From Thermodesulfovibrionales bacterium (lineage in GTDB: Bacteria > Nitrospirota > Thermodesulfovibrionia > Thermodesulfovibrionales > UBA9159), in NCBI GenBank assembly GCA_035686305.1, contig DASRZP010000106.1, positions 1-38,030 on the forward strand: 38,030 nucleotides of DNA, given 5' to 3'. This document shows, in pieces, positions 7,691 through 34,644 of the stretch. The notes below the pieces were generated by a model. The model ran no database searches and was not told where the DNA came from. It was given only the letters and a program-made list of their open reading frames with translations. Position 1 is the first letter of the stretch. Every line of letters starts with the position of its first letter. Made by a program: the position numbers and the translations under genes.

Positions 7691-10165
7691 TTACGCTTTT
7701 TCTATCCTCACCGTATCCGTTGGAGCTTCCCCGTTCGCGGCGGGATGGGTCAGTGCATTCACATTTGCGTGAGGGAAATGCGTCGGTGCAAAGAGCGTCC
7801 CTTCGGGCATCTCATCAGACAGCATCGCCTTGAGATATACCTCGCCCCTTCTCGACGTGACCCTTACATACCCTTCATCGTGAATCTTATGCTCCTTCGC
7901 ATCTCTCGGGTTGATTTCAAGATAGGCGTCTGAGACAACGGAACCGAGGTTCTTCGAAAGTACGGAGAGGGCTCCGGAATGCTGCAACAGATTTGACGTA
8001 ATAAGGAGCAGGGGATATTCTCTGTCCGGTTTCTCAGACAACACGTGCGTAACGGGGTGGAATGAGGGTCTTCCTTCATGAGAAGCAGCGGTAATCACCA
8101 TATCCATAATGGACGCCCTGATTTCGGCAAGGTCCTTGAGACCGACGTCCCGATTCATGGTTCTCGCCAGGTTTCTGAATACCTTCCAGTCGGGGATGGA
8201 CTGTCCTGTCTCGGCCAGAAGCTTCGGGACATTCTGGATATCGCCTGTGGCAGCCATGAATGTCCCCTCTTTCTCACCCCAGCTGCTGGCAGGAAGGACA
8301 ACGTCAGCAAGCTTCGCCGTATCTGTCATGATGATGTCCTGCACGATGAGCAGTTCCAGCTCCTTTAAGGCTCTTGTGACTGTCGAGACATCTTTAAAGG
8401 TAACGAGAGGGTTTTCTCCCATTATGTAGAGTGCCTTGACAGCTCCAGGCTTGTAAAGCATCTCAGAGGCGTCTTTTCCTCCCGAATGAGGTCTGACCCC
8501 GACCTTCCACATGCCTAAAGTATTCGAAAACTCAGCAGGAATCTGGAGGGTATCATGGGCGTCGCCCATGAGAAGAACGAGGTTGGCAGCTGCAAGGACC
8601 GTATTCATGCCCTTCGTGTTCTCAGAAGAGCCAAATGTCAGGGCGAGGAGCCTCCGTCTGGCTCGGGCATAGGACCTTGCAAGGCCAATGATCTCATCTT
8701 CAGTCAACCCTGTGAGCTTCGCAACGGCAGGAGGCGTGAAGTGGGTAAGACTCTTTGACCACGCTTCAAAATTCGGTATGGTGAGGGTCTTTTCCGTAAG
8801 GGGAATCTCCTCATCGAGATTATGAAGTCCCTCGTCGAGAATCACCTTTGCAATGCCGTTGAGGAGAGCAAGCCCCGAGCCTGCCTGTATCTGGAGCCAC
8901 GCGGTGCTGTTCCTCGCAAGTTTTGTCTCCTTCGGGTCTGCAACAATAAGTTGTGCCCCCTGTTTCTGGGCCGCAATAAAATTCAGCCCCCATACCGGCA
9001 CCGTGGATGTTATGTCGGACTCAACAACGAGGATAAAATCAGCCTGCAGAGGCGCGTCCCATGTTATCGGTGAAAGTTCAGTCCCGAAGGCCATCTCGAC
9101 GGCCTTCCGTGCCTTCGCATACCCGAAGCGGGCGGCAGAGTCGATATTGTCCGTGCCGATAATCTCCCTCATGAAACGCTGAAGCATGTAGTTGTCTTCC
9201 ATGGTGGCGCGCTGAGAGCCGATGGCGCCGATAGCGGACGGACCATGCTTCTCTTTTATCGCTTCGAGGCGCTGGGAAACGTATTGAAAGGCCTCCTCCC
9301 ACGTTACCGGAACAAGGGCGCCGTCCCTTTTAATCATGGGTGACTTTATTCTGTTTTCAGAATAGATGTAATCAAATCCGAACCTTCCCTTGCTGCAGAG
9401 ATCTCCCTGGTTGATTCCGATGCCTTCCTTCCCTCTTGCCCTGACGATCCTTCCTTCCCTGAGACTCAGGTTTGTGGTGCAGCCGCAGCCGCAATAGGGA
9501 CATACGATCGGATATTCATCCATATACCAGACCCTTGACCTGAATCGGTAAGGCTTGCTTCCGAGGGCTCCAACAGGGCATGCGTCAATGCACTGCCCGC
9601 AGAACTCGCAGTCCAGGGTCTCCTCGAAGGCTGGACTGATCTTTGACTTGAATCCCCTGCCGAGAAGATTTATGGCACCGACACCCTGATGGTCATAACA
9701 GACCCTCACGCACTTGCCGCAGAGGATGCACCTGTTTGGGTTTCTTTCCACGAGCGGCGCGGCGATGCTCTCGGGTTCACGGCTCCTCTCAGCCACAAAC
9801 CTGCTCTCGGAGGGGCCATACTTGAATGCAAGATCCTGGAGCTGGCACTCACCCGCCTTATCGCAGATCGGACAATCGAGGGGATGATGAATGAGCAGAA
9901 ACTCGAGGACCGTCTTTCTCGCCTTATGGAGCTTCGGCGTCTCGGTATGGACCACCATCCCGTTTTCAGCAGGCGTAGAGCATGCCGCGAAAAGCCTTTT
10001 CTGCCCTTCCAATTCAATGACACAGAGCCTGCAGCCACCATAGGGCCTGAGCCGCCTGTCATAACAGAGGTTGGGAATGTAGATCCCGTTCTTCTGGGCT
10101 GCCTGGAGCACGGTGGTGCCGGGCTCAACCTTCATCGTTTTACCGTTTATCGTAAGCTGTATCAT
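7691..10165 (-). CDS. nuoG: NuoG-like iron-sulfur/molybdopterin-fold subunit
   Basis: This 824-residue protein is an electron-wire subunit of a NADH dehydrogenase module. In order it has a plant-type [2Fe-2S] domain (C34, C45, C48, C62), a His-Cys cluster site (H94, C98, C101, C107), two ferredoxin [4Fe-4S] sets (C146/149/152/156 and C186/189/192/196), and a further CPYCGCGC set (C222, C225, C229, C257) that opens a molybdopterin-oxidoreductase fold. A C-terminal MopB-like domain follows. Where formate dehydrogenases have the catalytic Sec/Cys ('CARVUHG'-type), this protein has 'SAARFGY' with Gly at 348. It is therefore unlikely to be an active formate dehydrogenase and is better called NuoG-like. 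It starts 6 bp after nuoF. A 'formate dehydrogenase alpha' label is the likely automated misannotation. Confidence 0.85.
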   Translation of the reverse strand: MIQLTINGKTMKVEPGTTVLQAAQKNGIYIPNLCYDRRLRPYGGCRLCVIELEGQKRLFAACSTPAENGMVVHTETPKLHKARKTVLEFLLIHHPLDCPICDKAGECQLQDLAFKYGPSESRFVAERSREPESIAAPLVERNPNRCILCGKCVRVCYDHQGVGAINLLGRGFKSKISPAFEETLDCEFCGQCIDACPVGALGSKPYRFRSRVWYMDEYPIVCPYCGCGCTTNLSLREGRIVRARGKEGIGINQGDLCSKGRFGFDYIYSENRIKSPMIKRDGALVPVTWEEAFQYVSQRLEAIKEKHGPSAIGAIGSQRATMEDNYMLQRFMREIIGTDNIDSAARFGYAKARKAVEMAFGTELSPITWDAPLQADFILVVESDITSTVPVWGLNFIAAQKQGAQLIVADPKETKLARNSTAWLQIQAGSGLALLNGIAKVILDEGLHNLDEEIPLTEKTLTIPNFEAWSKSLTHFTPPAVAKLTGLTEDEIIGLARSYARARRRLLALTFGSSENTKGMNTVLAAANLVLLMGDAHDTLQIPAEFSNTLGMWKVGVRPHSGGKDASEMLYKPGAVKALYIMGENPLVTFKDVSTVTRALKELELLIVQDIIMTDTAKLADVVLPASSWGEKEGTFMAATGDIQNVPKLLAETGQSIPDWKVFRNLARTMNRDVGLKDLAEIRASIMDMVITAASHEGRPSFHPVTHVLSEKPDREYPLLLITSNLLQHSGALSVLSKNLGSVVSDAYLEINPRDAKEHKIHDEGYVRVTSRRGEVYLKAMLSDEMPEGTLFAPTHFPHANVNALTHPAANGEAPTDTVRIEKA

Positions 10166-10171
10166 GATTTC

Positions 10172-12055
10172 TTATTCCTCCTTTGCCGCAAGGGCCGCTA
10201 TCCGCATATCCTTCAAAGCCGCCTGATCAGTTGTCTCCTTCAGGCTTTCTCTCATGCTTCTTGGGCCGATCTTCACTGAATCGAACTTACATACCTCATA
10301 ACAAGAGCGGCACTGTATGCATTTCGCTTGGTCGATGCGGTGGGCTACCTTCTTTTCTCCGGATACGGCAGCCTGGGGGCAGACCTTTTTGCACTGGCCG
10401 CAGGCCTTACACTTCTCCTCATCGATATAGAAGGTGCAGAGGTCCTTGCATACCCCTGTCTTGCACCACTGCTCGTTTATGTGGGATTCATACTCTTCCT
10501 TGAAATATCTTATCGTCGTCAGTACGGGGTTGGGGGCGGTCTGGCCCAGACCGCAGAGAGATGTGGCTATGATGTCGAGGGACATGTCCTGAAGGAGCTC
10601 GATGTCTCTTGCCTTTCCTTTCCCTTCCGTTATCTTTGTCAGGAGATCGAGCATCATCGTCGTTCCGATCCTGCAGGGCGGGCATTTACCGCATGACTCT
10701 TCAGCGGTAAATTCGAGGAAGAACTTCGCGACGCTCACCATACAGTTCAGGTCATTCATAACAACCATTCCGCCGGAACCAACAATGGCCCCTGTCTGTA
10801 CGATGTCCTCGTAGGTGACCGGCGTATCAAGGAGGTGCTCTGGTATACAGCCCCCAGAGGGCCCGCCCAGCTGGACGGCCTTGAACTTTCTCTTGTTCGG
10901 TACGCCGCCGCCGATATCATAAATGATCTTTCTGAGGGGGATGCCCATAGGAACCTCAATGAGACCGATATTGCTGATCGCGCCGCTCAGGGCGAAGACC
11001 TTTGTTCCTGTAGATTTTTCCGTCCCGAGACTCCTGTACCAGTCAGCGCCGTTCAAAATAATTTGCGGTATATTGGCATAGGTTTCGACGTTGTTCAGCA
11101 CCGAAGGCTTATCCCAGAGCCCTTTCTGAGCGGGGAACGGCGGCCTGGGCCTCGGCATTCCCCTCTTCCCTTCGATCGACCTCATGAGGGCTGTCTCTTC
11201 TCCGCAGACAAAAGCACCGGCCCCCTGGTAGATCTCGATATCGAGGTTGAATCCCGTACCAAGGATATTATCGCCGAGAAGTCCGTACTCTTTCGCCTGG
11301 TCTATGGCGAGCTGTAATCTGTGGACGGCGAGGGGGTACTCTGCCCTCACGTAAATGTATCCCTTATTTGCCCCGATCGCCCTGGCGCCGATTATCATGC
11401 CCTCAAGCACGACATGGGGGTCGGCCTCCATGATGCTCCTGTCCATGAATGCGCCGGGGTCTCCTTCATCGCCGTTACAGAGGATAAACTTCTCGTCCCC
11501 CTTAACCCTTGCACAGAGTTCCCATTTCATTCCCGTGGGGAATCCTGCTCCGCCCCTTCCGCGAAGTCCGGAGCGCTTGAGTTCATCGATGACCTGTTCC
11601 GGCGTCATCTCCGTCAGTGCCTTTGCAGCTGCCTGGTACCCGTCCCTCGCAATGTATTCATCGATCTTCTCCGCATCGATAAGGCCTTTGTTCCGTAAGG
11701 CCCTGAGCACCTGGAGACTGAAGAAGGGGATGTCCTTCATAAGGGGGATCGTCTGCTTCTTGACAGGCTCCTTGTACATGAGCCTCTCGACAGGCCTTCC
11801 CTTGATGAAGTGCTCTTCCACAATGAGGGGGACATCCTTTACGGTGACCTTCTCGTAAAAGATATCGTCGGGATAGACGGTCATGACAGGGCCCTCGGCG
11901 CAGAAGCCGTTACAACCGGTCAGGACGACATGTATTTCATTCTGGAGGCCTCTGTTCTTCAACTCTTCATCAAGGGCGGTCTTTATCTTCAGACTGCCGC
12001 CGGCGATACATCCGGTGCCTCCGCACAACATTACACTTGAACGATATTTTTCCAT
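10172..12055 (-). CDS. nuoF: NuoF/HydB/HndC-type NADH-binding flavoprotein subunit
   Basis: This 627-residue protein is the FMN- and NAD(H)-binding subunit. The N-terminal 90 residues are a thioredoxin-like [2Fe-2S] domain (C11, C16, C48, C52). The NuoF core follows: 'GLRGRGGAGFPTG' for NAD binding (163-175), 'CNGDEGDPGAFMDR' for FMN (193-206), an SLBB-like region and the N3-type [4Fe-4S] site 'SCGKCPPC' (C455, C458, C461, C501). The C-terminus adds two ferredoxin [4Fe-4S] clusters (C549/552/555/559 and C579/582/585/589). This extended architecture is known from the beta subunits of soluble multimeric and electron-bifurcating enzymes (HydB, HndC), not the short NuoF of E. coli-type complex I. 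A GGAGGAG site precedes the start. The 128 bp between it and the upstream gene hold no ORF. Confidence 0.93.
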   Translation of the reverse strand: MEKYRSSVMLCGGTGCIAGGSLKIKTALDEELKNRGLQNEIHVVLTGCNGFCAEGPVMTVYPDDIFYEKVTVKDVPLIVEEHFIKGRPVERLMYKEPVKKQTIPLMKDIPFFSLQVLRALRNKGLIDAEKIDEYIARDGYQAAAKALTEMTPEQVIDELKRSGLRGRGGAGFPTGMKWELCARVKGDEKFILCNGDEGDPGAFMDRSIMEADPHVVLEGMIIGARAIGANKGYIYVRAEYPLAVHRLQLAIDQAKEYGLLGDNILGTGFNLDIEIYQGAGAFVCGEETALMRSIEGKRGMPRPRPPFPAQKGLWDKPSVLNNVETYANIPQIILNGADWYRSLGTEKSTGTKVFALSGAISNIGLIEVPMGIPLRKIIYDIGGGVPNKRKFKAVQLGGPSGGCIPEHLLDTPVTYEDIVQTGAIVGSGGMVVMNDLNCMVSVAKFFLEFTAEESCGKCPPCRIGTTMMLDLLTKITEGKGKARDIELLQDMSLDIIATSLCGLGQTAPNPVLTTIRYFKEEYESHINEQWCKTGVCKDLCTFYIDEEKCKACGQCKKVCPQAAVSGEKKVAHRIDQAKCIQCRSCYEVCKFDSVKIGPRSMRESLKETTDQAALKDMRIAALAAKEE

Positions 12056-12183: not shown

Positions 12184-12567
12184 TTAATATGCGGTCTCGC
12201 TTCCCATGACGAGGGCGGAACCCTCAACAATACGGCCGTTCATTACATGCTCCTGGAAGATCCTTCGTATCTTCTCATCGTCCAGCAGCACATACTTCAC
12301 GGGCGCCTCGTTCATGATCTCGACGGTAGCCATAGGCTCCTTGCTGCACAACCCGGCGCAGCCCGATGTCGTCACGATCACATCCTTGACGTCGCTCTTG
12401 GCAATCTCGTCAAGGAGCGCTTCCATTACCTTTCTTGCGCCAGCAGCGATGCCGCACGTACCCATGTGCACGGTTATCTTCGCACGCGAACCTCCCTCCC
12501 GTAATGTCAGGGCGGATTTGTAGTCTTCCTTTATCTTCTTGAGATCATCGATCGTCAACCGTCCCAT
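12184..12567 (-). CDS. Thioredoxin-like [2Fe-2S] ferredoxin, HndB-like
   Basis: This 127-residue protein resembles HndB of NADP-reducing hydrogenases. Key segments are 'HMGTCGIAAGARKVME' and 'TTSGCAGLCSKEPM', which supply three visible cysteines, one fewer than the usual four of thioredoxin-fold [2Fe-2S] proteins. Cluster binding is therefore likely but not certain. The order NuoE-type, HndB-type, HndC-type, large Fe-S subunit matches hndABCD, except that the last gene here is NuoG-like instead of an [FeFe]-hydrogenase. The start has an AAGGAGG site. Confidence 0.8.
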   Translation of the reverse strand: MGRLTIDDLKKIKEDYKSALTLREGGSRAKITVHMGTCGIAAGARKVMEALLDEIAKSDVKDVIVTTSGCAGLCSKEPMATVEIMNEAPVKYVLLDDEKIRRIFQEHVMNGRIVEGSALVMGSETAY

Positions 12568-12627: not shown

Positions 12628-13494
12628 TTAGTCACTATAATCCTTCAGCAGATTATGTACCTTTACTGCATTGACGGATCCGTGGGTGTCTTTGTCGATC
12701 ACGACTACCGGCGCAAGCCCGCAGGCCCCCAGACACCGGACCGTTTCAAGCGAGAACTTCTTGTCAGCCGTAACGCCTCCGACACTGACCGCGAGGCCGT
12801 CACTCAGCTTCTTAACAATCTCTTCTGCGCCCTTGACATAGCAGGCGGTGCCGAGGCATACCCTGATGTTATGCTTGCCTTTGGGCTTCATGGTGAAGAA
12901 TGAGTAGAATGAGACAACGCCATGGACTTCGCTCACGGGAAGCTTCAAACCCTTCGCAATATGCCTCTGGATAGAGGGGGGAAGGTATCCGATAAGTTCC
13001 TGCGCCTCCTGGAGAACAGGGATGAGACTACCCGGCTTTCTCCGGTATCTCTTAATGATCGTATCGAGTTGCCTTGCTTTCTCCTCGGTATACTCCTCCG
13101 ATGGGGGAGCCTCTGCAATTACCCCTGACTTTCTGAATTCCATTGCCTTTCCCGTAACCTCCAGGAGCAGCCCCGGCGAAAAGGGTTTCGGCAGATAATC
13201 GAGGATCCTCAGACTGAGGGCCTCTTTTATGCTGTCCTGCGAAGGGTAGCCTGTAATTACGATGATCCCGGTATCAGGCTTGGAGTTCCTTATCCACCGG
13301 ATGAGCTCAAGGCCGTTCATGTCCGGCATCATAAGGTCTGTGATAACAAGGTCGTAGCCGTCTTTGCCGAGCTTGTTCGTCGCCTCGTTGCCGTTCGACG
13401 CGCTCTCGACGGTATAACCTTCTGGCGCTAGGATGCGTTCGCAGCTCTTGACGACAACAGGTTCGTCATCTACTACAAGTATCTTCCCTGCCAT
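12628..13494 (-). CDS. Receiver domain fused to NuoE-type [2Fe-2S] subunit
   Basis: This 288-residue fusion has a CheY-like receiver at residues 1-120 with all active-site residues present: D9/D10 in 'VVDDEP', phospho-acceptor D53 in 'VITDLMMPDMNG', T81 and K103 in 'LPKPF'. Residues 135-285 are a complete NuoE/HndA subunit: an N-terminal helical part ('LIPVLQEAQELIGYLP'), 'VHGVVSFYSFF' and the [2Fe-2S] thioredoxin fold with C213, C218, C254 and C258 ('CLGTACYVKGA', 'CLGACGLAP'). NuoE normally passes electrons or tunes flavin chemistry beside NuoF and is about 160 residues, so the extra 120 are the receiver. It is the first gene of the diaphorase operon, behind a candidate sigma-54 promoter. 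Phosphorylation could tune subunit activity or assembly (inference). Confidence 0.92.
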   Translation of the reverse strand: MAGKILVVDDEPVVVKSCERILAPEGYTVESASNGNEATNKLGKDGYDLVITDLMMPDMNGLELIRWIRNSKPDTGIIVITGYPSQDSIKEALSLRILDYLPKPFSPGLLLEVTGKAMEFRKSGVIAEAPPSEEYTEEKARQLDTIIKRYRRKPGSLIPVLQEAQELIGYLPPSIQRHIAKGLKLPVSEVHGVVSFYSFFTMKPKGKHNIRVCLGTACYVKGAEEIVKKLSDGLAVSVGGVTADKKFSLETVRCLGACGLAPVVVIDKDTHGSVNAVKVHNLLKDYSD

Positions 13495-13637
13495 TCCTCA
13501 TATCCTCCTTCGGATGTACTTTATCGAATGGAAACTGCACGTTTACGTACAGGAGTAAGGCTCTCAACCTTCCTCCTCCCTTCGTTCTCGTCTCTTGGCT
13601 TATTCTTGCTTTGTAGCCGAAGAGTCTGAAAAGATCA

Positions 13638-13653
13638 AGCAATTATGTTGCCA
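13638..13653 (-). promoter_or_regulatory. Candidate sigma-54 promoter of the receiver-NuoE/nuoFG operon
   Basis: The minus strand reads TGGCAACATAATTGCT, matching the RpoN consensus TGGCACG-N4-TTGCW at the -24 TGGCA and -12 TTGCT blocks with exact spacing. The transcription start would be near 13627, giving a leader of about 130 nt before the ATG at 13494. A sigma-54 activator is encoded just upstream on the same strand (13998-15383), which fits. Confidence 0.7.
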
Positions 13654-13682: not shown

Positions 13683-13759
13683 ATAAACAAGAAAGTCTTA
13701 TATATCCATACAGCCATGACCCAGAGTAAGCCATAGACAATAAAGACTTTCTTGTTTAT
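13683..13759. repeat. Perfect 17-bp inverted repeat upstream of the sigma-54 promoter
   Basis: ATAAACAAGAAAGTCTT (13683-13699) is repeated exactly inverted at 13743-13759, with 43 bp between. The arms lie roughly 45 and 105 bp upstream of the -24/-12 element, in the range where NtrC-type activators bind. It could be a pair of opposed activator sites, or a long hairpin in the 3' end of the upstream transcript. No T run follows on the minus strand, so it is not a standard terminator. Confidence 0.6.
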
Positions 13760-13997
13760 GGTGTATGCTTTTTATATACATTTTTCTGTCCAAGACCGTA
13801 GGTTCTGAGGGGCTCACTCTTCCTGAGCAGCGACTGGATTGACAGCGGGACAGTTCTTTACACCTGGCGAGTTGAATATTTTTTTTATACACATGGTATG
13901 TGCCAGTGAAGGGCCGAGGATCCTCTGGGTTATATCAAAGAGAGCGGCGGAGAGCGGCGAACTGTTACGGGAAAGCCCCTCTCCACTCTCAAGTGCA
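13760..13997. other. Intergenic stretch with no recognisable gene
   Basis: This is the rest of the roughly 500-bp gap between the receiver-NuoE gene and the NtrC-type gene. It is AT-rich, with a T8 tract near 13880-13887. Open frames crossing it on either strand lack recognisable motifs and mostly run into the sigma-54 activator gene. No hairpin with a following T run was found. Confidence 0.4.
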
Positions 13998-15383
13998 TTA
14001 TCCCCTCTTGATCCCATATCTCTTCAGAAGTGCCTGGAAATTTGTCCGTTGCATCCCCACCTCCTGAGCCGCCCTTGTAATATTCCACTTGCTGCGGTCT
14101 AATGCATTGACGACAAAAGCCCTTTCGAGATCTTCGACTGACTTGACCCTCAGCTTCTTCTTCATCTGTTTCAACTCTACGCTTGTTTTGGGAATTTCGG
14201 GCTCCTTTCTGCCTGTTATGAGAATATGCTCGGGCCTCAGTGCCTTGCCTTTACAGAGGATGACGGCGCGGTGAATGATATTTTCGAGCTCCCTTACATT
14301 GCCGGGCCAGTCGTGCAGTATGAGGCGTTTCATTGCCTCTGCAGAGATTGAAGATACCTCCTTCTCCGTCTCCCTCCCGAATTTCCTGATGAAATGATCG
14401 GCGAGCGCCGGGATGTCCTCTTTCCTCTCTCTAAGGGGTGGAAGGTTTATCGGGAAGACGTTCAGCCGATAAAAGAGGTCTTCCCTGAATGTTCCTTCCC
14501 GAACCATTGCTGACAGATCTCTGTTTGTTGCAGCGAGGATCCTGACATCGACCTTCGACATGGTCCTTCCTCCCAGAGGCCTGAACTCCTTCTCCTGCAG
14601 CACCCTAAGGAGTTTCGCCTGCATCGGAATGCCGAGGTTCCCTATCTCATCGAAGAGAATAGTCCCGCGATGGGCAAGCTCGAGAAGGCCCCTGCGCGTC
14701 TCCATCGCCCCGGTGAAAGAACCCTTCATATAACCAAAGAGCTCGGCCTCCATGAGGGCGTCGGGGATCGTCCCGCAGTCGACAACAAGGAAGGGCTCAT
14801 TCCTGCGCGGGCTGTTGTGATGGAGCGCCCTCGCAATGAGCTCCTTGCCTGTTCCGCTTTCCCCGGTTATGAGAACCGTTGTCATTGCAGGTGCTACCGT
14901 TGCGATGAGGTGAAAAACCTTCTGCATGGCCGCCGAAGTCCCGGTGATATTCTCCATGCGGTACAGGGCGTGCATCTCCTGTCTCAGCCGCAGGTTTTCG
15001 ACGAGGAGGTGTTTTCTTTCGAGGCAACGTGTCACAGCGTGGAGAAGCTGTTCGGGCGCAAAAGGCTTCTCGATATAGTCGTACGCCCCGTAGCGCAAGG
15101 CCTCGACAGCGGTCTTCACGGATCCGAAACCGGTTATGACGATCACTTCCGTACCGGGCCAGTTCTCCTTGATCATCCTCAGTACCTCCATGCCGTCCAT
15201 GTGGGGCAGGCGAAGGTCTGTGAGCACGAGATCAAAGTGCTCCTTCCTGAGCCTGTTCAGCCCTTCCGTGCTGTTGGCCGAGAACTCCAGTGCATAGCCT
15301 TCAGGAGCGAGTATCTTTCCACAGCTCTTTCTGACGATCTCATCGTCATCAATAATGATAATCTTCTCTTTAGCAGAGATCAT
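13998..15383 (-). CDS. NtrC-type sigma-54-dependent response regulator
   Basis: This 461-residue transcription activator has a receiver (D56 in 'VLTDLRLPHMDG'), an AAA+ central domain (Walker A 'GESGTGKE' 174-181, sigma-54 contact loop 'GSFTGA' 221-226, Walker B 'ILFDEI' 242-247, R-finger region 'FREDLFYRLNVFPI') and a C-terminal Fis-type HTH ('WNITRAAQEVGMQRTNFQALLKR'). All parts for phosphorylation-controlled, ATP-driven opening of sigma-54 promoters are intact. Its nearest downstream target is the sigma-54 site at 13638-13653. The receiver is clearly related to those at 12628-13494 and 15532-15900 (shared 'LAPEGY' with a preceding Cys). The Shine-Dalgarno before the ATG is weak. Confidence 0.93.
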   Translation of the reverse strand: MISAKEKIIIIDDDEIVRKSCGKILAPEGYALEFSANSTEGLNRLRKEHFDLVLTDLRLPHMDGMEVLRMIKENWPGTEVIVITGFGSVKTAVEALRYGAYDYIEKPFAPEQLLHAVTRCLERKHLLVENLRLRQEMHALYRMENITGTSAAMQKVFHLIATVAPAMTTVLITGESGTGKELIARALHHNSPRRNEPFLVVDCGTIPDALMEAELFGYMKGSFTGAMETRRGLLELAHRGTILFDEIGNLGIPMQAKLLRVLQEKEFRPLGGRTMSKVDVRILAATNRDLSAMVREGTFREDLFYRLNVFPINLPPLRERKEDIPALADHFIRKFGRETEKEVSSISAEAMKRLILHDWPGNVRELENIIHRAVILCKGKALRPEHILITGRKEPEIPKTSVELKQMKKKLRVKSVEDLERAFVVNALDRSKWNITRAAQEVGMQRTNFQALLKRYGIKRG

Positions 15384-15531: not shown

Positions 15532-15900
15532 TCATTTCGAATCGAGGGCATCCTTAACCGCGGCAACGAGGGCATCAGGGGTGAACGGTTTTTCGATATA
15601 ATTGAATGCGCCTGATTTGATCGCCTTCACAGCATTCTCGACCGTACTGTATCCCGTTATCATGATCACCTTTGCGGCCGGCCGCTTCTCCCTTGTCTTC
15701 AGGAGAAACTCCATCCCGTCCATGTCGGGCATCTTGAGGTCCGTCAGAATGAGGTCGTAGGCACTCGTCTCAGCCATCTTCATACCCTCGATCCCGCTCG
15801 GTGCAACGTCAACGTCATAGCCCTCAGGCGCCAGGCACTTCTTGCAGCTTACCCGCACAATCTCCTCATCATCGATCACAAGAATCTTCGGCTTGGCCAT
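15532..15900 (-). CDS. Single-domain response regulator (CheY-like)
   Basis: This 122-residue receiver has no output domain. D10/D11, phospho-acceptor D54 ('ILTDLKMPDMDG'), T82 ('MITGYS') and K104 ('YIEKPFTP') are all present, so it should accept and pass on phosphate. It probably acts as a relay between the cassette's kinase or kinases and another component. It sits between a HATPase gene and the sigma-54 activator on the same strand. Its sequence 'SCKKCLAPEGY' is shared in form with the other two receivers in the cluster. Confidence 0.92.
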   Translation of the reverse strand: MAKPKILVIDDEEIVRVSCKKCLAPEGYDVDVAPSGIEGMKMAETSAYDLILTDLKMPDMDGMEFLLKTREKRPAAKVIMITGYSTVENAVKAIKSGAFNYIEKPFTPDALVAAVKDALDSK

Positions 15901-15992: not shown

Positions 15993-16535
15993 TTAACCCT
16001 GACGGCTTCTTATTCCCCGCTCAATATCTTCCCTTATGGCCTTCAGGACTGCCGGCCTGTTTATAGGTATCTCTCCAAGGTCCTCTCTAATCTCGGCAGT
16101 ACTGAGGCGGTACGTGTAATCATTCTTTTTATACTCAAGGACGAAATCGATCCTCTCATTTCCGGCTATGAGAACCGTCAGCGTTGCCGCGATATTCCCC
16201 AGCGGTTTCCTGTCGATATGGCTGTTCCTGAAACGTGCTGTTATGGTTGTCCCCTTCCCCTGCCCCGAAGTGATCGAAAAGCACCCGTCACACTCCTCTG
16301 CAGACTGCTTCAGGAGGGGCAACCCAAGGCCCACCCTCCTGACGGTCTTTGTGCTAAAGAAAGGGTCTGTGACCATCTTTACGGTCTCTTCGTCCATGCC
16401 CCTTCCGTTATCCCTGATCTCCAGAGTCAGCCGGTCATTTGCCGTATCCTCTTCAACGCGTATCTCCACGAGATCGGCGCCGGCAGTGACAGAGTTCTCG
16501 GCGATGTCAAGGATATGCAGGGAGAGGTCTTCCAT
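15993..16535 (-). CDS. Stand-alone histidine-kinase-type ATPase protein
   Basis: This 180-residue protein has a GHKL ATP-binding domain at residues 1-105: N box 'DIAENSVTAGA' (N14), G1 box 'DNGRGMDEE' (42-50), F-box 'DPFFSTK' and G2 box 'VGLGLPLL' (68-75). There is no upstream dimerisation/phospho-His domain. Residues 110-180 form an unassigned region. The start directly abuts the PHP stop (TAAATG), indicating coupling. It may phosphorylate a partner histidine elsewhere or act as a non-kinase switch. From memory, similar lone ATPases occur beside PHP and DRTGG genes in [FeFe]-hydrogenase operons; this was not checked here. Confidence 0.82.
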   Translation of the reverse strand: MEDLSLHILDIAENSVTAGADLVEIRVEEDTANDRLTLEIRDNGRGMDEETVKMVTDPFFSTKTVRRVGLGLPLLKQSAEECDGCFSITSGQGKGTTITARFRNSHIDRKPLGNIAATLTVLIAGNERIDFVLEYKKNDYTYRLSTAEIREDLGEIPINRPAVLKAIREDIERGIRSRQG

Positions 16536-17285
16536 TTATTCGGTCTCCCAGCAGGTGTCGCGGCCATCCCTCTTCACGAGGGCGAGCCTTATCTCTTCCA
16601 AGGTCGGCTCTTTCAGTCTGAAGGTCGTGACTCTTCTTCCGATATCGGCAACATGGTGAGCATCGGAAAAAGAGACCCAGGGCAAATTCCGCAGCCCCTT
16701 AAACTGCGCCTCTGCAAGGCCCCTTGTCATTTTTGGGGAGAGCTCAAGGGCATCGAATCGCACGTCAGCGGGGATGAAACCCAGCTGAGAAAGAACGCTA
16801 AAGCTCTCACGGTCAATATGACTGGCAATGGCCAGTCCTCCGAGGGAATGAATGGTCTCCACCAATTCGCGGAGGTTCAGCTTCGTCGCCGCTATGAGCA
16901 ATCTCCTGTTGAACGCGAGGACCTCATTGAATTCGTTTGCGATCACCTGATGCCCGTAAAGCCTCTCGTCATTTTCCTGCTCGGGAAGATTCTCATAGAT
17001 AATGTCCTGCATGCGCAACATCTGTCCCGTTTCATTGAAGAGACCAAGGATGTGAACCTCCTCTGAACTTGACACCTCCATCCCGCCGAGGATGGTCATC
17101 CCTGTCCCGTAGGCTGCCCTCTTTGATGCCTCGACATTCTCGCAGGAGTTGTGATCTGTTATGGCGATGATGTCCAGCCCCCGTGCTCTCGCTGCTCCCA
17201 CAAGGTCCCGGGGGCTCATATCCAGATCGGCGCACGGAGAAAGACAGGTATGGAGATGAAGATCGGCCAGAAACGTACTCAACAT
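16536..17285 (-). CDS. PHP-domain metal-dependent phosphoesterase
   Basis: This 249-residue protein has the PHP fold of polymerase/histidinol-phosphatase-type hydrolases. Metal-ligand motifs are present: 'DLHLHT' (H10, H12), 'ITDHNS' (D44, H45), 'GGMEVSS' (E70), 'EEVHILGLF' (H78), 'ASHIDRE' and 'FSDAHH'. It should bind two or three metals and hydrolyse a phosphoester, with the substrate unknown. It overlaps the upstream DRTGG gene by 7 bp and abuts the following HATPase gene, so it is in a tightly coupled operon. Its place among signalling genes suggests it removes or makes a small phosphorylated signal (inference). Confidence 0.88.
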   Translation of the reverse strand: MLSTFLADLHLHTCLSPCADLDMSPRDLVGAARARGLDIIAITDHNSCENVEASKRAAYGTGMTILGGMEVSSSEEVHILGLFNETGQMLRMQDIIYENLPEQENDERLYGHQVIANEFNEVLAFNRRLLIAATKLNLRELVETIHSLGGLAIASHIDRESFSVLSQLGFIPADVRFDALELSPKMTRGLAEAQFKGLRNLPWVSFSDAHHVADIGRRVTTFRLKEPTLEEIRLALVKRDGRDTCWETE

Positions 17286-17614
17286 CGAAGGAACTGATAG
17301 AGCTTGCCCCCCGCCTCAAAGGTCGAATGGGACGTGACAAAAATCGGGATCCTTTCTTCATCGGCCTTCGTCAGGGTCTCTCCTTCGGGATTTCTCTTAT
17401 TCGTCAGGATGATGGCTGCCAGGTTTCTCAGGACAGCCACGGCAACGGTGTTTGGGTGCGTCTGGAGGGTGATCCAGACTTCGCCTTCCTGTGCGTTTGC
17501 CATGACATCAGAGAGCAGGTCGCTGATATAGCACCCGGTCACCTCCCGTTCGAGATCCACATCTGCCGTCCTCGCTTCAAGGGACAATGCCTTGACTACC
17601 TCACCGAGATTCAT
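17279..17614 (-). CDS. DRTGG-domain protein (first of two)
   Basis: This is a 111-residue single-domain protein of the DRTGG type. The core 'GCYISDLLSDVMANAQEG' and 'VAVLRNLAAIILTNKRNP' matches the other DRTGG gene here and the domain seen in phosphotransacetylase and CBS-pyrophosphatase proteins, where it can take part in nucleotide binding. GGAGG lies 8 bp before the ATG. It overlaps the preceding gene by 14 bp and the PHP gene by 7 bp. A small regulatory or ligand-sensing role is likely; the exact ligand is unknown. Confidence 0.8.
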   Translation of the reverse strand: MNLGEVVKALSLEARTADVDLEREVTGCYISDLLSDVMANAQEGEVWITLQTHPNTVAVAVLRNLAAIILTNKRNPEGETLTKADEERIPIFVTSHSTFEAGGKLYQFLRC

Positions 17615-18056
17615 GGCCGTGATCCTCCCTATGAATGGTTATGATTATTTCGAGCGTCGTTCCCTCCCCGACAACAGAATCGACCTTAAAATCGTCGGAA
17701 TTCTTCTTGATGTTGGGCAGTCCTATTCCCGCTCCCCACCCCTTCTCCCTCACCCAGTCGGGAGCAGTCGAGTATCCTTCGGTCATCGCCAGCGGAATGT
17801 CAGGTATGCCCGGACCCATGTCGGTGACAACGATCTTGATCTCCTGGGAGGTAACGGAATAATACATCACGCCGGCAGTTGCATGGATGATCACGTTCAT
17901 TTCAGCCTCGAAGCTGGCGATGGCGGCCCTCCTCACGATCTTCATGTCGATGCCAAGCCCTGTGAGAACGGATTTCAACTCGCTCGACGCCACCCCGGCG
18001 TTCGTAAAATCTCCTCCGATGATATGGAAGCTCCCTTCCCTGTTGCCCTTGTTCAT
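17601..18056 (-). CDS. RsbW/SpoIIAB-like ATPase (anti-sigma-type GHKL domain)
   Basis: This 151-residue protein has only a GHKL ATPase: N box around N54 in 'AEMNVIIHA', G1 'DMGPGIPD' (79-86) and G2 'GWGAGIGLPNI' (107-117). This resembles the serine-kinase anti-sigma factors RsbW and SpoIIAB rather than histidine kinases. The ATG at 18056 was chosen over one 18 codons upstream because it overlaps the preceding stop as ATGA. No STAS-domain antagonist or PP2C phosphatase is visible nearby, so its partner is unknown. It lies between the two DRTGG genes. Confidence 0.82.
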   Translation of the reverse strand: MNKGNREGSFHIIGGDFTNAGVASSELKSVLTGLGIDMKIVRRAAIASFEAEMNVIIHATAGVMYYSVTSQEIKIVVTDMGPGIPDIPLAMTEGYSTAPDWVREKGWGAGIGLPNIKKNSDDFKVDSVVGEGTTLEIIITIHREDHGHESR

Positions 18057-18415
18057 AGCGTTGCATCCTCGGTACAGCTCTGGAGACCTTTTGCATAGAG
18101 GATGCCGCATGAGGTGAATCTCGAAAACCGTGTTGCGATCAATGGGATATCCTTCTCTCTTGCCAGCTCGATCGTCTCCTTGTCGGGTCTCTTGTCGAGA
18201 ACAAAGATGATGGCCTTCAGATCGGCGATTTCCGCCGTTCTCACCACCTGGGGATTGACGAGCCCCGTGATGAGAAGGGATCTCGGCTTTGTCGCAAAAC
18301 AGAGCAGATCGCTCATAAGGTCGGAACTGCAGACCGTACTGACGTCGGAATCCATATCCCCCGCGCTGAGAATCACCTCGCCATCGAGGAGTCTGATCAC
18401 TTCTCGCAGCGTCAT
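18053..18415 (-). CDS. DRTGG-domain protein (second of two)
   Basis: This 120-residue protein resembles the gene at 17279-17614. It has 'STVCSSDLMSDLLCFATK', 'VVRTAEIADLKAIIFVLDKR' and 'DIPLIATRFSRFTSCGILY', against 'IPIFVTSHSTFEAGGKLY' in the other copy. The two are probably ancient paralogues. It starts 7 bp after the sensor kinase stop and shares an ATGA overlap with the RsbW-like gene. The function is likely ligand or signal sensing; no catalytic site is visible. Confidence 0.78.
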   Translation of the reverse strand: MTLREVIRLLDGEVILSAGDMDSDVSTVCSSDLMSDLLCFATKPRSLLITGLVNPQVVRTAEIADLKAIIFVLDKRPDKETIELAREKDIPLIATRFSRFTSCGILYAKGLQSCTEDATL

Positions 18416-18422
18416 CCTTATA

Positions 18423-20027
18423 TTATCCTATCCCCGGTGTGGCTTCCAACGGTAACCGCACAAAAAAGCTCGCACCCTTGCCGAGCTCACTCCGTACAAA
18501 GATGTTCCCCCCATGTTTCTTGATGATCCCGTAACTGACGGAAAGGCCGAGGCCCGTCCCCTTCCCGATCGGCTTTGTCGTGAAGAAGGGCTCGAAGATC
18601 CTGCCGACGTGGTCGGGCGGTATACCGGGGCCCGTATCACTGAACTCGATCTCGATCTGTTTCCTGCCGTTGAGGCTGTCGTCGCTCAACCGCGTCACGA
18701 CGGTCACCTCGCCTCTCTCATTCATTGCGTCAGCCGCGTTTATCAAGAGATTCAGGAAGACCTGCTGCATCTGGTTCGGATCTGCAAGAATGGAGGGGAG
18801 GCTGCTCTCAAGGGTGAGGTTGAACTTTATATTATGGAACTTTGCCTGATTAGTGACGAGGGAGATGGTATTCCGGAGAAGGGCATTAAAGTCCGTCAGG
18901 GTCTTTTCCGCAGAGGTCTTTCTCGAGAACCCGAGAAGGCTCTTGATGATTTTGGAGCACCGGTTTGCCTGTTCGATGATGACTTCAAGGTCTTCGATGT
19001 CCTGTTTGTTCTCGGGGGGTATGCGTTTCTGCATGAGATGAGCAAAGGTGACGATGCCCGTTAACGGGCTGTTCAATTCGTGGGCCACGCCTGCTGCCAT
19101 CCTTCCGAGAGAGGCCAGTTTCTCTGCGTTGATGAGATGATCATGGGCCCTCACAATCTCCGCCTTCTTCTTCTGGACTTCCTCTTCGAGGGCCTTTGTC
19201 CAGTTCTCCATGCTCTCCCGGTATTTCTTGATATCCTTTGCCATGGAATTGAATGTCTGCGCAAGGAGGCCCATCTCATCGTTCGTGGGGATCTCGATCA
19301 CATGATCGAGATTCCCCTTGGATATCTTCCTCATCCCTTCGTCGAGGAGCGAGACGGGCTTCGAGACAAATTTATAGAGAATGATGCAGAGAGAGACGGA
19401 TATGATCATGATGAAGAGACCCCCGAACAGCAGGGTCCCGATGCGACTTTGAGCGATCGCGGCATCCACGGCAGCCATGCTGACATTGGTTTCGAGGACG
19501 CCGAGGATCTTCTGATCTTCCCGATGATAATGGCAGGAGGCCCCGTAGCAGGAAGGCTCATTCGCCATAGGGACAACCCTGGTCAGCGTCTTCGTGCCGC
19601 TGCGGTCAGAGACGATCCTCCAGTTTTCTGAATCGGGAATTGCACTGAGAGGCTTTTCGCTGTCCCGGTGGCAGATCTGACAGGTGGGGTAATCTTTCCC
19701 GACTGAACGGCCCACCTCGCCCTTCTTCGATGAATACGTTATTCTCCCCTTCATGTCGAATATCGTAATTCCCCGGATGCCCGAACCCGAGGCGATCGTT
19801 TCGACCGTCTTCTCTATGGAGTCCCTATCGCCGGCAAGCATGCCGCGAGAGATCCCTCGTTTCACGAGGTCTGCCGTTGCCGTTGCGCTGCTGATGAGGT
19901 TCTTCATCATAATGGTTTCCTGATAGTGGATAAAGATATACCCGAAGATGATGCTGCCCAGAGCCATAAGGCACCCTACGGCCAGGATGAGCTTTCCCGC
20001 CAGGGAATTCAGGGACTTTCTGATCAT
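18423..20027 (-). CDS. Membrane sensor histidine kinase with periplasmic haem-c-type motifs
   Basis: This 534-residue sensor kinase has TM1 at about 12-34, a periplasmic domain at 35-196, TM2 at about 197-219, HAMP at 220-272, a coiled coil, HisKA with phospho-His H316 ('AHELNSPL') and HATPase ('INAADAMNERGE', 'DTGPGI', 'GTGLGLSV'). The periplasmic part carries a CxxCH haem site (C116, C119, H120) and a second, wider C-x4-CH motif (C160, C165, H166, followed by YH). Redox or NO/O2 sensing through covalent haem is therefore plausible. It is the first gene of the signalling block, divergent from nuoA. No Shine-Dalgarno is visible, and a possible -10 lies 6 bp before the ATG (see 20034-20042). 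Candidate partners are the receivers at 15532, 13998 and 12628. Confidence 0.92.
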   Translation of the reverse strand: MIRKSLNSLAGKLILAVGCLMALGSIIFGYIFIHYQETIMMKNLISSATATADLVKRGISRGMLAGDRDSIEKTVETIASGSGIRGITIFDMKGRITYSSKKGEVGRSVGKDYPTCQICHRDSEKPLSAIPDSENWRIVSDRSGTKTLTRVVPMANEPSCYGASCHYHREDQKILGVLETNVSMAAVDAAIAQSRIGTLLFGGLFIMIISVSLCIILYKFVSKPVSLLDEGMRKISKGNLDHVIEIPTNDEMGLLAQTFNSMAKDIKKYRESMENWTKALEEEVQKKKAEIVRAHDHLINAEKLASLGRMAAGVAHELNSPLTGIVTFAHLMQKRIPPENKQDIEDLEVIIEQANRCSKIIKSLLGFSRKTSAEKTLTDFNALLRNTISLVTNQAKFHNIKFNLTLESSLPSILADPNQMQQVFLNLLINAADAMNERGEVTVVTRLSDDSLNGRKQIEIEFSDTGPGIPPDHVGRIFEPFFTTKPIGKGTGLGLSVSYGIIKKHGGNIFVRSELGKGASFFVRLPLEATPGIG

Positions 20028-21787: not shown

Positions 21788-22984
21788 ATGGATCAGGAGA
21801 CGAAGGAACTAAGGACAAAAGAGCTCACCATCAACATGGGTCCCCAGCATCCCGCGACCCATGGTGTCTTGCGTCTGTTTCTCGAACTCGATGGAGAGAC
21901 GGTCATCAAGTGCACGCCCTATGTCGGATACCTTCACCGGGGAACGGAGAAACTCGGCGAAAACAGGACCTATCTTCAGGCGCTGCCGCTCTCAGACAGG
22001 CTCGATTATATATCGTCCATGTCCAACAATGTCGGTTATTGCGTCGCCGTAGAGAGACTGTTCGGTATCGAGCCTCCTGAAAGGGCTAAGTATATCAGAA
22101 CGATGATGGCTGAGATGACGAGGATCAGCAGCCACATCATCGGCGTCTCGACCCATGCCCTCGATATCGGGGCTATGACCATGTTCCTCTACTCCTTTCG
22201 TGAGCGGGAATGGCTCATGGACCTCTTCGAGATGACCTGCGGAGCACGCCTGACCGTGAGCTATCCGAGGATCGGCGGCGTCAGGAACGATGTGAGCCAG
22301 GAGTTCCTTGACAGCCTCTATCAGTTCACCGAGGAGTTCCCCAGGAGGATCGAGGAATACGAGACCTTGATAGATCAGAACAGGATATGGTTGAAGCGGA
22401 CAAAAGGCATCGGCGTCATAAGCGCGGAAGACGCAATAAACTGGGGATTGACAGGTCCAACGTTACGGGGATCAGGAGTCCTCTATGACGTGAGGAAACA
22501 TGCGCCCTATGACGCCTATGATAAGGTTGCCTTTGACGTGCCTATCGGGAAGAACGGCGATGTCTACGACCGGTATCGCTGCAGGATGGAGGAACTCCGG
22601 CAGTCGAACAGGATCATCAGGCAGTGCATTGAACAGCTCCCGAGAGGCCCGATTATGGCCCCTGACGCGCCAAAGTTTACCCTTCCTCCGAAAGATACGG
22701 TACTGCAGAACATGGAGTCGATGATCCACCACTTTGTCCTGATAACAAAAGGTCCGACGACCGCTCCCGAAGGAGAGATCTACGTGGCGACAGAGGTGCC
22801 GAAGGGTGAGCTCGGGTTCTATTTTATCAGCGACGGAACGGGCAGACCGTATCGGATGAGACTACGGTCGCCGTCTTTTGTCCACGTGTCGGTACTTCCG
22901 ACGCTGTGCGAAGGCGCTCTCATAGCCGATGTCATCGCAAATATCGGAACGATCGACATCGTTCTCGGAGAGTGTGACCGGTAA
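21788..22984 (+). CDS. nuoD: Complex I subunit NuoD
   Basis: This 398-residue 49-kDa subunit forms the quinone pocket with NuoB. It contains '[21 protein letters not shown]', '[10 protein letters not shown]', '[10 protein letters not shown]' and a C-terminal '[12 protein letters not shown]'. It is related to the large subunit of NiFe hydrogenases but lacks the Ni-ligand cysteines, as expected. An upstream ATG at 21773 lies inside nuoC; the ATG at 21788, directly after the nuoC stop with GAGGT at about 10 bp, gives the normal N-terminus. Confidence 0.96.
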
Positions 22985-23003
22985 AAGCATCGTTTCCGGC
23001 TCT

Positions 23004-23471
23004 ATGGAAGACGGCGTAATCCAGGGCATCCATATTTTCAGGGACCTGGACAGCTCTGAGAGAGCGATCATCGGGGCCATACTCACGTGCAAAGAGTGTG
23101 CGCCCAATGACGTGATATACACTGAAGGGGACAAGGGCAACAGCCTGAACATTATACTCAAGGGCAAGGTGAGGATCAACAGGGCGACGGTAGAGGGTGA
23201 TCAGTTCTGCATAGCAACCCTGAAGAAAGGTGATATCTTCGGTACCATGTCTTTTCTTGACGGAAGCCCCCATGACGCGACGATTGTGTCAGACCAGCGG
23301 ACTGAGCTGACGGTATTGGAGAAGTCCGATTTTGACCGTCTGATCCAGTCCAGTCCCCTGACGGCCGCCAAGATATTACGGAGGCTTTCGATGCATCTTG
23401 CCGCTCTCGTGAGGAATATGAACAGCCAGTATATGGATGTCATGAACCTCATGTTCAGAAAGGGCAAATGA
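23004..23471 (+). CDS. Cyclic-nucleotide-binding-domain protein inside the nuo operon
   Basis: This 155-residue protein consists of a Crp/Fnr-type effector domain only. It has 'IHIFRDLDSSERAIIGAIL', 'VIYTEGDKGNSLNIILKGKV', 'LKKGDIFGTMSFLDGSPHDA' and 'VLEKSDFDRLI', the usual beta-roll with a phosphate-binding-cassette-like segment. A short C-terminal helix follows, with no HTH, so it is not a classical DNA-binding Crp. The start is uncertain: the ATG at 23004 fits the family N-terminus but lacks a clear Shine-Dalgarno, and a GTG at 22974 overlapping nuoD is the alternative. It occupies the place where nuoEFG stand in many operons. Allosteric control of complex I or its assembly is a guess. Confidence 0.82.
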   Translation: MEDGVIQGIHIFRDLDSSERAIIGAILTCKECAPNDVIYTEGDKGNSLNIILKGKVRINRATVEGDQFCIATLKKGDIFGTMSFLDGSPHDATIVSDQRTELTVLEKSDFDRLIQSSPLTAAKILRRLSMHLAALVRNMNSQYMDVMNLMFRKGK

Positions 23472-31241: not shown

Positions 31242-32609
<1,368 letters not shown>

Positions 32610-32610
32610 T

Positions 32611-34644
32611 CTATCCCTCCTTCATCGGCATCTCGATCGTGAAGATCGTCCCTCGTGGTTCGTTGTCCCTCACGCGGAGGTAGCCTCTGTGCTCTGCGAC
32701 GATCTTGCTCGCAATCGCTAACCCGAGACCTGTACCACCGTCCTTCGTCGAGAAATACGGAAGAAAGAGCTTTTCTTTGTCCTCTTCCCGTATCCCCGGG
32801 CCGTCATCAGCAACATCGAGAGATACCTTGTTCGATTTGGTGTTATACATGACGCTCACGACGATCTTCCCGCGGCCGTTCATCGCATGGATCGCATTGT
32901 CAAAGAGATTAATGAGGACCCGTTTGAACTGGTCGCCGTCCAGGTCTATCAACGGCGTCTCCGGCGGTATCTGAGCCGTTATCGTAACGTCCTTGTAATC
33001 CCGGTAAAGGTTAACGACCTCTTCTATTATACCACCGAGGGCAGAGGGCGCCTTCACGATCTCAGGCATTTTGCCAAACCGGGAAAATTCGTCCACGAGA
33101 CCCCTCAGGCTGTCGACCTCTCTGATGATGGTTTTTGTCGACCGTTCAAAAACCTGCCCGAAATCACTGTCCTTCTGCTCCCATTTTTTTAGCATCCGTT
33201 CCGTCGAGAGCTTAATGGGTGTGAGGGGATTCTTTATCTCGTGGGCCATCCTCCTCGCGACCTCCTGCCATGCCAATGCCCGCTGTGCCTTTATCATATC
33301 CGTCAGGTCGTCGAAGACGACGAGGAGGCCAAGGTACCCGGAAACGTCGTCCCGCAACCCCATGATCGATACCTTGAGAAGCAGGCGTTTCCCCTTAACG
33401 GTCGCCCAGACCTCCCTTCCGACGCTTCCGAGATCCTTCAGCCGTATCCCGTGAACCATTTCCTGAAGCGAATCAGACTTGATGCGGGAGAGGATCTCGC
33501 GATAATTCTTGCCGATGACATCCTCTGGTCTGACGCCGAGGATAGAGCATGCAGCCCTGTTTATGGTAAGGCTGTTCCCATTCGCATCAAGGGATATGAC
33601 GCCGCTCTGGATGTTTTCGAGGATGTTCTCCATGGAGAGTCGCCTTCTGTCGGATTCGATATAGGCCTCCTGGAGGGATTCCTTTCCGTCTTTCAGCTCT
33701 TTCACCATATGATTGAAGGAGTTTATGAGGAGACCGATCTCGTCATCCCGATCAACGCCGATACTCACATCGAGATTCCCTGATGCAACTTCGCCCGTTG
33801 CCTGGGCGAGACCCTGGATCGGTTCCGTAATGCCTCTCGCGAGCCTGAGGGAGACCCAGAGGGCCATGAAAATAACGATGAGCGTGAAAAAACCGAGGAA
33901 GAGGAGATAATTCAATTTCAGGGGTTGTTTCCAAGCCTCGAGTTTTACGTAGTCCTCATAGGCGTTCTTGATCTTTTCGACGTTTCCTGTGATCTCCCTT
34001 GGCACGCGGGAATCCACGATCAAGACTCCTGTCTTCTTCCCCGGCATTACATCGGGGACTGCTGCCCGGACAATATCACCGTCATCATCCGACAGAACCT
34101 CGGTGCCTTCCTTCCCTTCAAAAGCCTCTCGCACCACGTCGGAAGGGTTTTCAGGCATCTCGGTGAGATGAATGACACTGTATTCTATCGGCAGGGAACC
34201 CCGTGAAATGATCGCTTTCGCCGCCTCCAGGGTCTTCTTCCTCTCTATGTCATACACCGAACTCGCTATGTTCAGCGCGCTGTCGATGGGCTGCCGGAAC
34301 TGGGGTGTAAACCACCGGTCTATGTAATTGGTCACGAGGCCGCTCGCCCCCAGGAAGAGGAGAACAGAAGGGATCGATGTCAGCACCACAAAGATGACGA
34401 CGATCTTGGTCTTGAATTGTGATCCGAGCACCTTCCGTTTCCGTTCGAGGTAGAGCTTTGTCAGGTTCTTCCCGACAAAGAACATCAGCGTCAAGAGTGC
34501 AAGGATATTGACATTCATGAGGATGAGGAGGATGACCTTCGCCGTTATCGACAGAGAGCCGAGCCTCATGAAATGGACTTCGATGGCCGATGCAAGGAGA
34601 ATAAAGAAGAGGAGCGCCGAGAAGACGAGGCCGAGCTTCTTCAC
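32611..34644 (-). CDS. ntrY: NtrY-type membrane sensor histidine kinase
   Basis: This 677-residue protein has several N-terminal hydrophobic segments (about 5-25, 33-57, 80-105 and 244-266) flanking an extracytoplasmic domain, then HAMP (about 267-320), PAS (about 335-450) and HisKA with phospho-His H468 ('RRMAHEIKNPLTPIKLS'). The HATPase has 'LFDNAIHAMNGRG', 'DDGPGIREED' and 'GGTGLGLAIA'. This is the NtrY layout. The start overlaps the upstream stop (ATGA). The cognate regulator is ntrX, immediately downstream. Confidence 0.93.
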   Translation of the reverse strand: MKKLGLVFSALLFFILLASAIEVHFMRLGSLSITAKVILLILMNVNILALLTLMFFVGKNLTKLYLERKRKVLGSQFKTKIVVIFVVLTSIPSVLLFLGASGLVTNYIDRWFTPQFRQPIDSALNIASSVYDIERKKTLEAAKAIISRGSLPIEYSVIHLTEMPENPSDVVREAFEGKEGTEVLSDDDGDIVRAAVPDVMPGKKTGVLIVDSRVPREITGNVEKIKNAYEDYVKLEAWKQPLKLNYLLFLGFFTLIVIFMALWVSLRLARGITEPIQGLAQATGEVASGNLDVSIGVDRDDEIGLLINSFNHMVKELKDGKESLQEAYIESDRRRLSMENILENIQSGVISLDANGNSLTINRAACSILGVRPEDVIGKNYREILSRIKSDSLQEMVHGIRLKDLGSVGREVWATVKGKRLLLKVSIMGLRDDVSGYLGLLVVFDDLTDMIKAQRALAWQEVARRMAHEIKNPLTPIKLSTERMLKKWEQKDSDFGQVFERSTKTIIREVDSLRGLVDEFSRFGKMPEIVKAPSALGGIIEEVVNLYRDYKDVTITAQIPPETPLIDLDGDQFKRVLINLFDNAIHAMNGRGKIVVSVMYNTKSNKVSLDVADDGPGIREEDKEKLFLPYFSTKDGGTGLGLAIASKIVAEHRGYLRVRDNEPRGTIFTIEMPMKEG

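Follow-up and report, generated by a model that had tools for sequence, protein, structure and literature searches.

Two-component sigma-54 regulons of the NtrC, ZraR and AtoC type pair a receiver-AAA+-Fis activator with a -24/-12 promoter and an upstream dyad enhancer, one activator to an operon, and the locus considered here is organized likewise. A set from D. vulgaris contains similar co-localised activator-operon pairs, one of them with an AT-rich palindrome (PMC4641369). Cultured Thermodesulfovibrio has been reported to lack NuoEFG in its complex I (PMC5165239). The window (the whole stretch of 38,030 nucleotides that we analysed, from a member of the Thermodesulfovibrionales) shares with it a nuoA-D, H-N operon in which the NADH module is missing, but adds, adjacent to that operon, a separate, divergently encoded and apparently regulated NuoEFG set.

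An initial annotation had placed a sigma-54 promoter ahead of this set, with the neighbouring NtrC-type gene as its likely activator and a haem kinase at the head of the circuit. Comparison with relatives brings out a conserved promoter, a conserved dyad, a conserved operon and a linkage of activator to promoter. On these grounds we propose, with a probability of about 0.88, that the element is a true sigma-54 promoter of the receiver-NuoE/ferredoxin/NuoF/NuoG operon, that the product of 13998-15383 is its dedicated activator, acting via the dyads, and that the module is conditionally expressed. The features concerned are collected in Table 1.

Table 1. Features of the window that bear on the proposed circuit
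Feature	Coordinates	Strand	Evidence
NuoG homologue	7691..10165	-	Pfam/NCBIfam matches
NuoF homologue with extra ferredoxin domains	10172..12055	-	Pfam/NCBIfam matches
Small 2Fe-2S ferredoxin-like protein	12184..12567	-	Weak NCBIfam ferredoxin matches; conserved synteny
Receiver-NuoE fusion that opens the operon in the window	12628..13494	-	PF00072 + PF01257; phospho-acceptor residues conserved
Sigma-54 -24/-12 promoter core TGGCAACATAATTGCT	13638..13653	-	GG-N10-GC match; conserved counterparts in relatives
Perfect 17-bp inverted repeat, between proximal dyad and promoter	13683..13759 (13683-13699 / 13743-13759)	.	
Proximal enhancer-like dyad TGTATATAAAAAGCATACA, scoring 10/10, centred 118 nt upstream of T(-26)	13762..13780	.	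Motif statistics
Distal enhancer-like dyad TGTATAAAAAAAATATTCA, scoring 9/10, centred 229 nt upstream of T(-26)	13873..13891	.	Motif statistics
NtrC-type activator: receiver, AAA+ with GSFTGA loop, Fis-type HTH	13998..15383	-	Domain matches; co-occurrence with promoter
Stand-alone CheY-like receiver	15532..15900	-	Domain match; linked to kinase and activator in relatives
Membrane histidine kinase, haem-type sensor, CXXCH at residue 116; candidate activator partner	18423..20027	-	Pfam match

The promoter element and the enhancer-like dyad

The core reads TGGCAACATAATTGCT from 13653 to 13638, with G(-24) at 13651 and C(-12) at 13639; rechecked against the letters of the window, its sequence, coordinates, strand and GG-N10-GC spacing are as first annotated. 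It lies downstream of the NtrC-type gene and 144 nt ahead of the receiver-NuoE ORF, and the start computed from the -12 position falls near 13627, which predicts a leader of about 133 nt to the ATG at 13494. The NtrC-type ORF is indeed adjacent, upstream and on the promoter's strand, with domains confirmed by Pfam match, and rpoN is present in the genome as a single copy.

The consensus match on which the annotation had relied is correct but is not significant by composition alone. The window holds 12 matches with at most one mismatch, against 14 expected from its composition, and a pattern search of the genome returned 60 exact matches, compared with 39 when the pattern was reversed. We therefore rejected the match as sole evidence and, these counts being uninformative, examined conservation. 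A scan of 27 loci gave 16 exact sites in the sense orientation and 3 antisense, with 1 in a reversed control, and most of them stand just ahead of the operon's first gene. The base at -22 is A in 48 of 48 promoters, although the search pattern left that position free; the known sigma-54 consensus reads TGGCA, that is, with A at -22. A chance match without function would be argued from the genome and window counts above, but position, strand and upstream dyad are conserved, the unselected A is invariant, and the site is gained and lost jointly with the activator (see below), so that we regard coincidence as extremely improbable.

Upstream of these promoters stands a dyad of 19 bp, TGTAT-N9-ATACA, A-rich at its centre, which was first recognised by eye in 14 promoters preceding operons of the receiver-GcvH/receiver-NuoE type; it had been missed in the earlier sequence-only reading and is added here by comparison. 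All 14 of these have a copy scoring at least 8 of 10, whereas in dinucleotide shuffles the number of promoters with such a copy averages 2.2 and is 6 at most. The proximal dyad of the window is the only perfect copy of the motif that a pattern search finds in the 3.23-Mb genome. The distance from dyad to promoter is usually 50-117 nt (median 75, over 48 promoters), compared with 118 nt for the proximal dyad in the window, and at least two dyads accompany 28 of the 48 promoters. Searching 176 genomes with a strict composite (dyad, 48-78 nt, promoter; the window's own spacing falls outside this range) returned this operon in about 26 genomes and about 11 other places, against 0 for the reversed control; the matches away from the operon, not studied singly, are taken as chance or homologous coding sequence. 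The dyad is likely, from its conservation, to be an enhancer for the activator.

The inverted repeat that separates proximal dyad and promoter in the window has a 43-nt spacer, is predicted to form a strong RNA hairpin (z -4.4), and may account for the long spacing there. A repeated or mobile element was rejected because a search of the genome gave no second significant copy, and a classical terminator because, for all the strength of the hairpin, no U-tract follows.

Co-occurrence of promoter, dyad and activator across the order

We searched 176 genomes of the Thermodesulfovibrionales (Nitrospirota) for the activator orthologue and for receiver-NuoE, and scored the upstream DNA for site and dyad. 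Activator E-values are bimodal (5e-135 or better for orthologues, 4e-126 or weaker for paralogues). Among the 93 loci scored, site and upstream dyad were found at 47 of the 50 in activator-positive genomes and at 1 of the 43 in activator-negative ones, with a Fisher p of 1e-21 that overstates the association, since the genomes are related. Because of this relatedness, changes were also reconstructed by parsimony on an 85-leaf receiver-NuoE tree (FastTree): the activator changes 17 times and the site 19 times, and 16 of these changes share branch and direction. When the genomes that first revealed the motif are set aside, the counts become 32/34 against 1/33. The relaxed form of the site (one mismatch allowed if the dyad scores at least 9/10) was defined after the exceptions had been seen; with exact sites only, the counts are 36/49 and 1/44, the single negative locus being that of G100, whose activator gene is truncated at a contig end and which was reassigned to the positive class.

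As for the other exceptions, the activator-positive G050 has its promoter on another contig, G012 and G104 have the activator and no scoring site, and in G145, conversely, both site and dyads occur with no activator detected. The link persists where the activator lies far from the operon or on another contig (for example, in G013, G021, G042 and G059), and the two genomes closest to the window by receiver-NuoE identity, G005 and G006, are alike without the activator orthologue, receiver-GcvH at the locus and the site. By these counts, promoter site and dyad come and go across the order in step with one specific activator gene. The sigma-54 promoter at 13638-13653 is thus confirmed as real by comparative evidence: the annotated reading, for which the consensus alone was insufficient, is upheld by conservation, by the upstream dyad and by co-occurrence with this NtrC orthologue.

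The activator combines a receiver retaining its acceptor Asp, an AAA+ sigma-54-interaction domain and a Fis-type HTH. Its sigma-54 contact loop is GSFTGA, and nearly all orthologues have GAFTGA or GSFTGA; the protein falls below every NCBIfam equivalog cut-off shown. The recognition helix GMQRTNFHALLKK is kept, with small variations, in 23 of 23 aligned orthologues and is different in 7 paralogues. The genome encodes at least 12 NtrC-type proteins, any other of which might drive the sigma-54 promoter in place of the 13998-15383 product, but we hold this to be very unlikely: throughout the order, site and dyad follow the orthologue of 13998-15383 despite the constant presence of paralogues, and the HTH of this protein is distinct.

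The target operon and the candidate partner kinase

The gene order in relatives runs kinase, DRTGG, RsbW-like, DRTGG, PHP, HATPase, CheY, [activator], [receiver-GcvH], receiver-NuoE, ferredoxin, NuoF, NuoG, with rearrangements. Where the activator is adjacent, the exact -24/-12 site follows its gene and shortly precedes the gene for a receiver-GcvH (lipoyl-like) fusion, which opens the operon (L065, L066, L067 and others). That gene is missing from the window's locus, where the promoter directly precedes receiver-NuoE, and the long leader is therefore, judging by this comparison, derived. A receiver-GcvH copy does exist elsewhere in the same genome (L300, at G000:C26:7013-7768; 55% identical), beside a second NuoEFG-like set. 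We rejected its relocation there under the same promoter, no such promoter or dyad being found nearby, and the copy is probably a paralogue.

The loss of the original first gene, the long leader and the unusual dyad spacing would all suit an ancestral promoter that works in relatives and survives in the window as a relic, receiver-NuoE then owing its transcription to another promoter or to read-through out of the kinase-activator genes. We think this improbable, because drift would be expected in a promoter undergoing decay, whereas neither the core site nor the proximal dyad shows a mismatch and the activator, too, is intact; in addition, a crude scan found no sigma-70-like site on the promoter's strand.

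The NuoE, NuoF and NuoG homologues carry their cofactor domains (by Pfam), and NuoE has its Cys residues. By our reading of the ORFs, a divergent operon from 20182 encodes subunits of the NuoA-D, H-N type and no EFG, and the promoter's target may be seen as an optional NADH-input module for complex I. A soluble, Hox- or Hnd-like role is also possible, as NuoE, F and G fall below NCBIfam equivalog cut-offs, with HoxE as the best NuoE match. In an 85-row alignment of the receiver on NuoE, the acceptor Asp is present in 84 of 85 rows and D9, D10, D53, T81 and K103 are nearly invariant; because these residues are conserved, the fused receiver is probably still phosphorylated, and the fusion suggests direct signalling control of an electron-transfer subunit. 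Elsewhere in the window, nuoD and nuoH are separated within the nuo operon by an ORF at 22929-23471 (cyclic-nucleotide-binding-domain-like by eye) that overlaps nuoD at the end of that gene, and 31242-34644, beyond that operon, holds a second pair of kinase and sigma-54 activator, NtrY/NtrX-like by eye.

Where the activator is unlinked from the operon, a kinase orthologous to 18423-20027 stands alongside it in 8 of the 9 regions read (the exception is G012), often with a small CheY between the two, which makes this kinase the best candidate for the activator's partner. The circuit of kinase, receiver, activator and operon that had been annotated is supported in so far as kinase and activator genes stay mostly together where relocated, with the correction that the regulatory array also has DRTGG, PHP and HATPase-only proteins. 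In the window this conserved array occupies 15993-18415, between kinase and CheY, and comprises two DRTGG proteins, one PHP protein and two HATPase-only (RsbW-like) proteins.

The periplasmic part of the kinase matches PF21563 (E=1.7e-6), a family that includes the c-haem periplasmic sensors of the Geobacter chemoreceptors GSU0582 and GSU0935 (PMC3460858). It shares with them the PF21563 match and CXXCH, but the protein is a histidine kinase, not a chemoreceptor, has an additional CX4CH, and lacks CXXCH in some of its orthologues. Several such orthologues (for example, L301, L304 and L308) keep CX4CH; the cofactor may differ between families, and the missing CXXCH makes haem sensing uncertain. 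Since c-haem sensor domains of a different class bind NO (PMC12889525), redox or NO is, by analogy, a fair guess at the signal.

Proposed mechanism and relation to known regulons

In the mechanism that we favour, the activator would bind the dyads at 13762-13780 and 13873-13891 and form an AAA+ ring, DNA looping would lead to an open complex by RpoN-RNA polymerase, and transcription of the operon would begin at the predicted start. Most likely, the periplasmic haem-type kinase would turn the activator on by phosphorylating it, either directly or via the CheY of 15532-15900. The predicted outcome is conditional expression of an NADH-input module, which would dock on the complex I whose nuoA-D, H-N genes are encoded divergently without EFG. 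A further, tentative suggestion, which we think has perhaps more against it than for it, is control at two levels, the kinase both inducing transcription of the module through the sigma-54 activator and phosphorylating the NuoE receiver (and the GcvH-like companion in relatives); were this true, a detachable input module of complex I would have its docking or its activity gated directly by signalling.

In the literature on sigma-54, nuo, NuoE receivers and Thermodesulfovibrio(nales) that we covered, with subscription journals largely outside that coverage, the circuit is not described, nor did we find there a published description of the dyad or of the recognition helix; a 2025 comparison of sigma-54 regulons makes no mention of Nitrospir- or nuo. 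What had been a guess from a motif becomes a defined unit of kinase, activator, enhancer, promoter and operon, conserved over a mostly uncultured order and with exact bases that can be mutated.

The proposed circuit is a two-component sigma-54 regulon of familiar type, which differs from regulons of the NtrC, ZraR and AtoC type in its unusual target, a NuoEFG-type NADH module. It touches on the question of how complex I acquires or sheds the part that oxidises NADH. Where cultured Thermodesulfovibrio is reported to lack NuoEFG, relatives seem to express such a module separately and under signal control, with a phospho-receiver on its NuoE, and whether electron input into complex I can be switched becomes directly testable.
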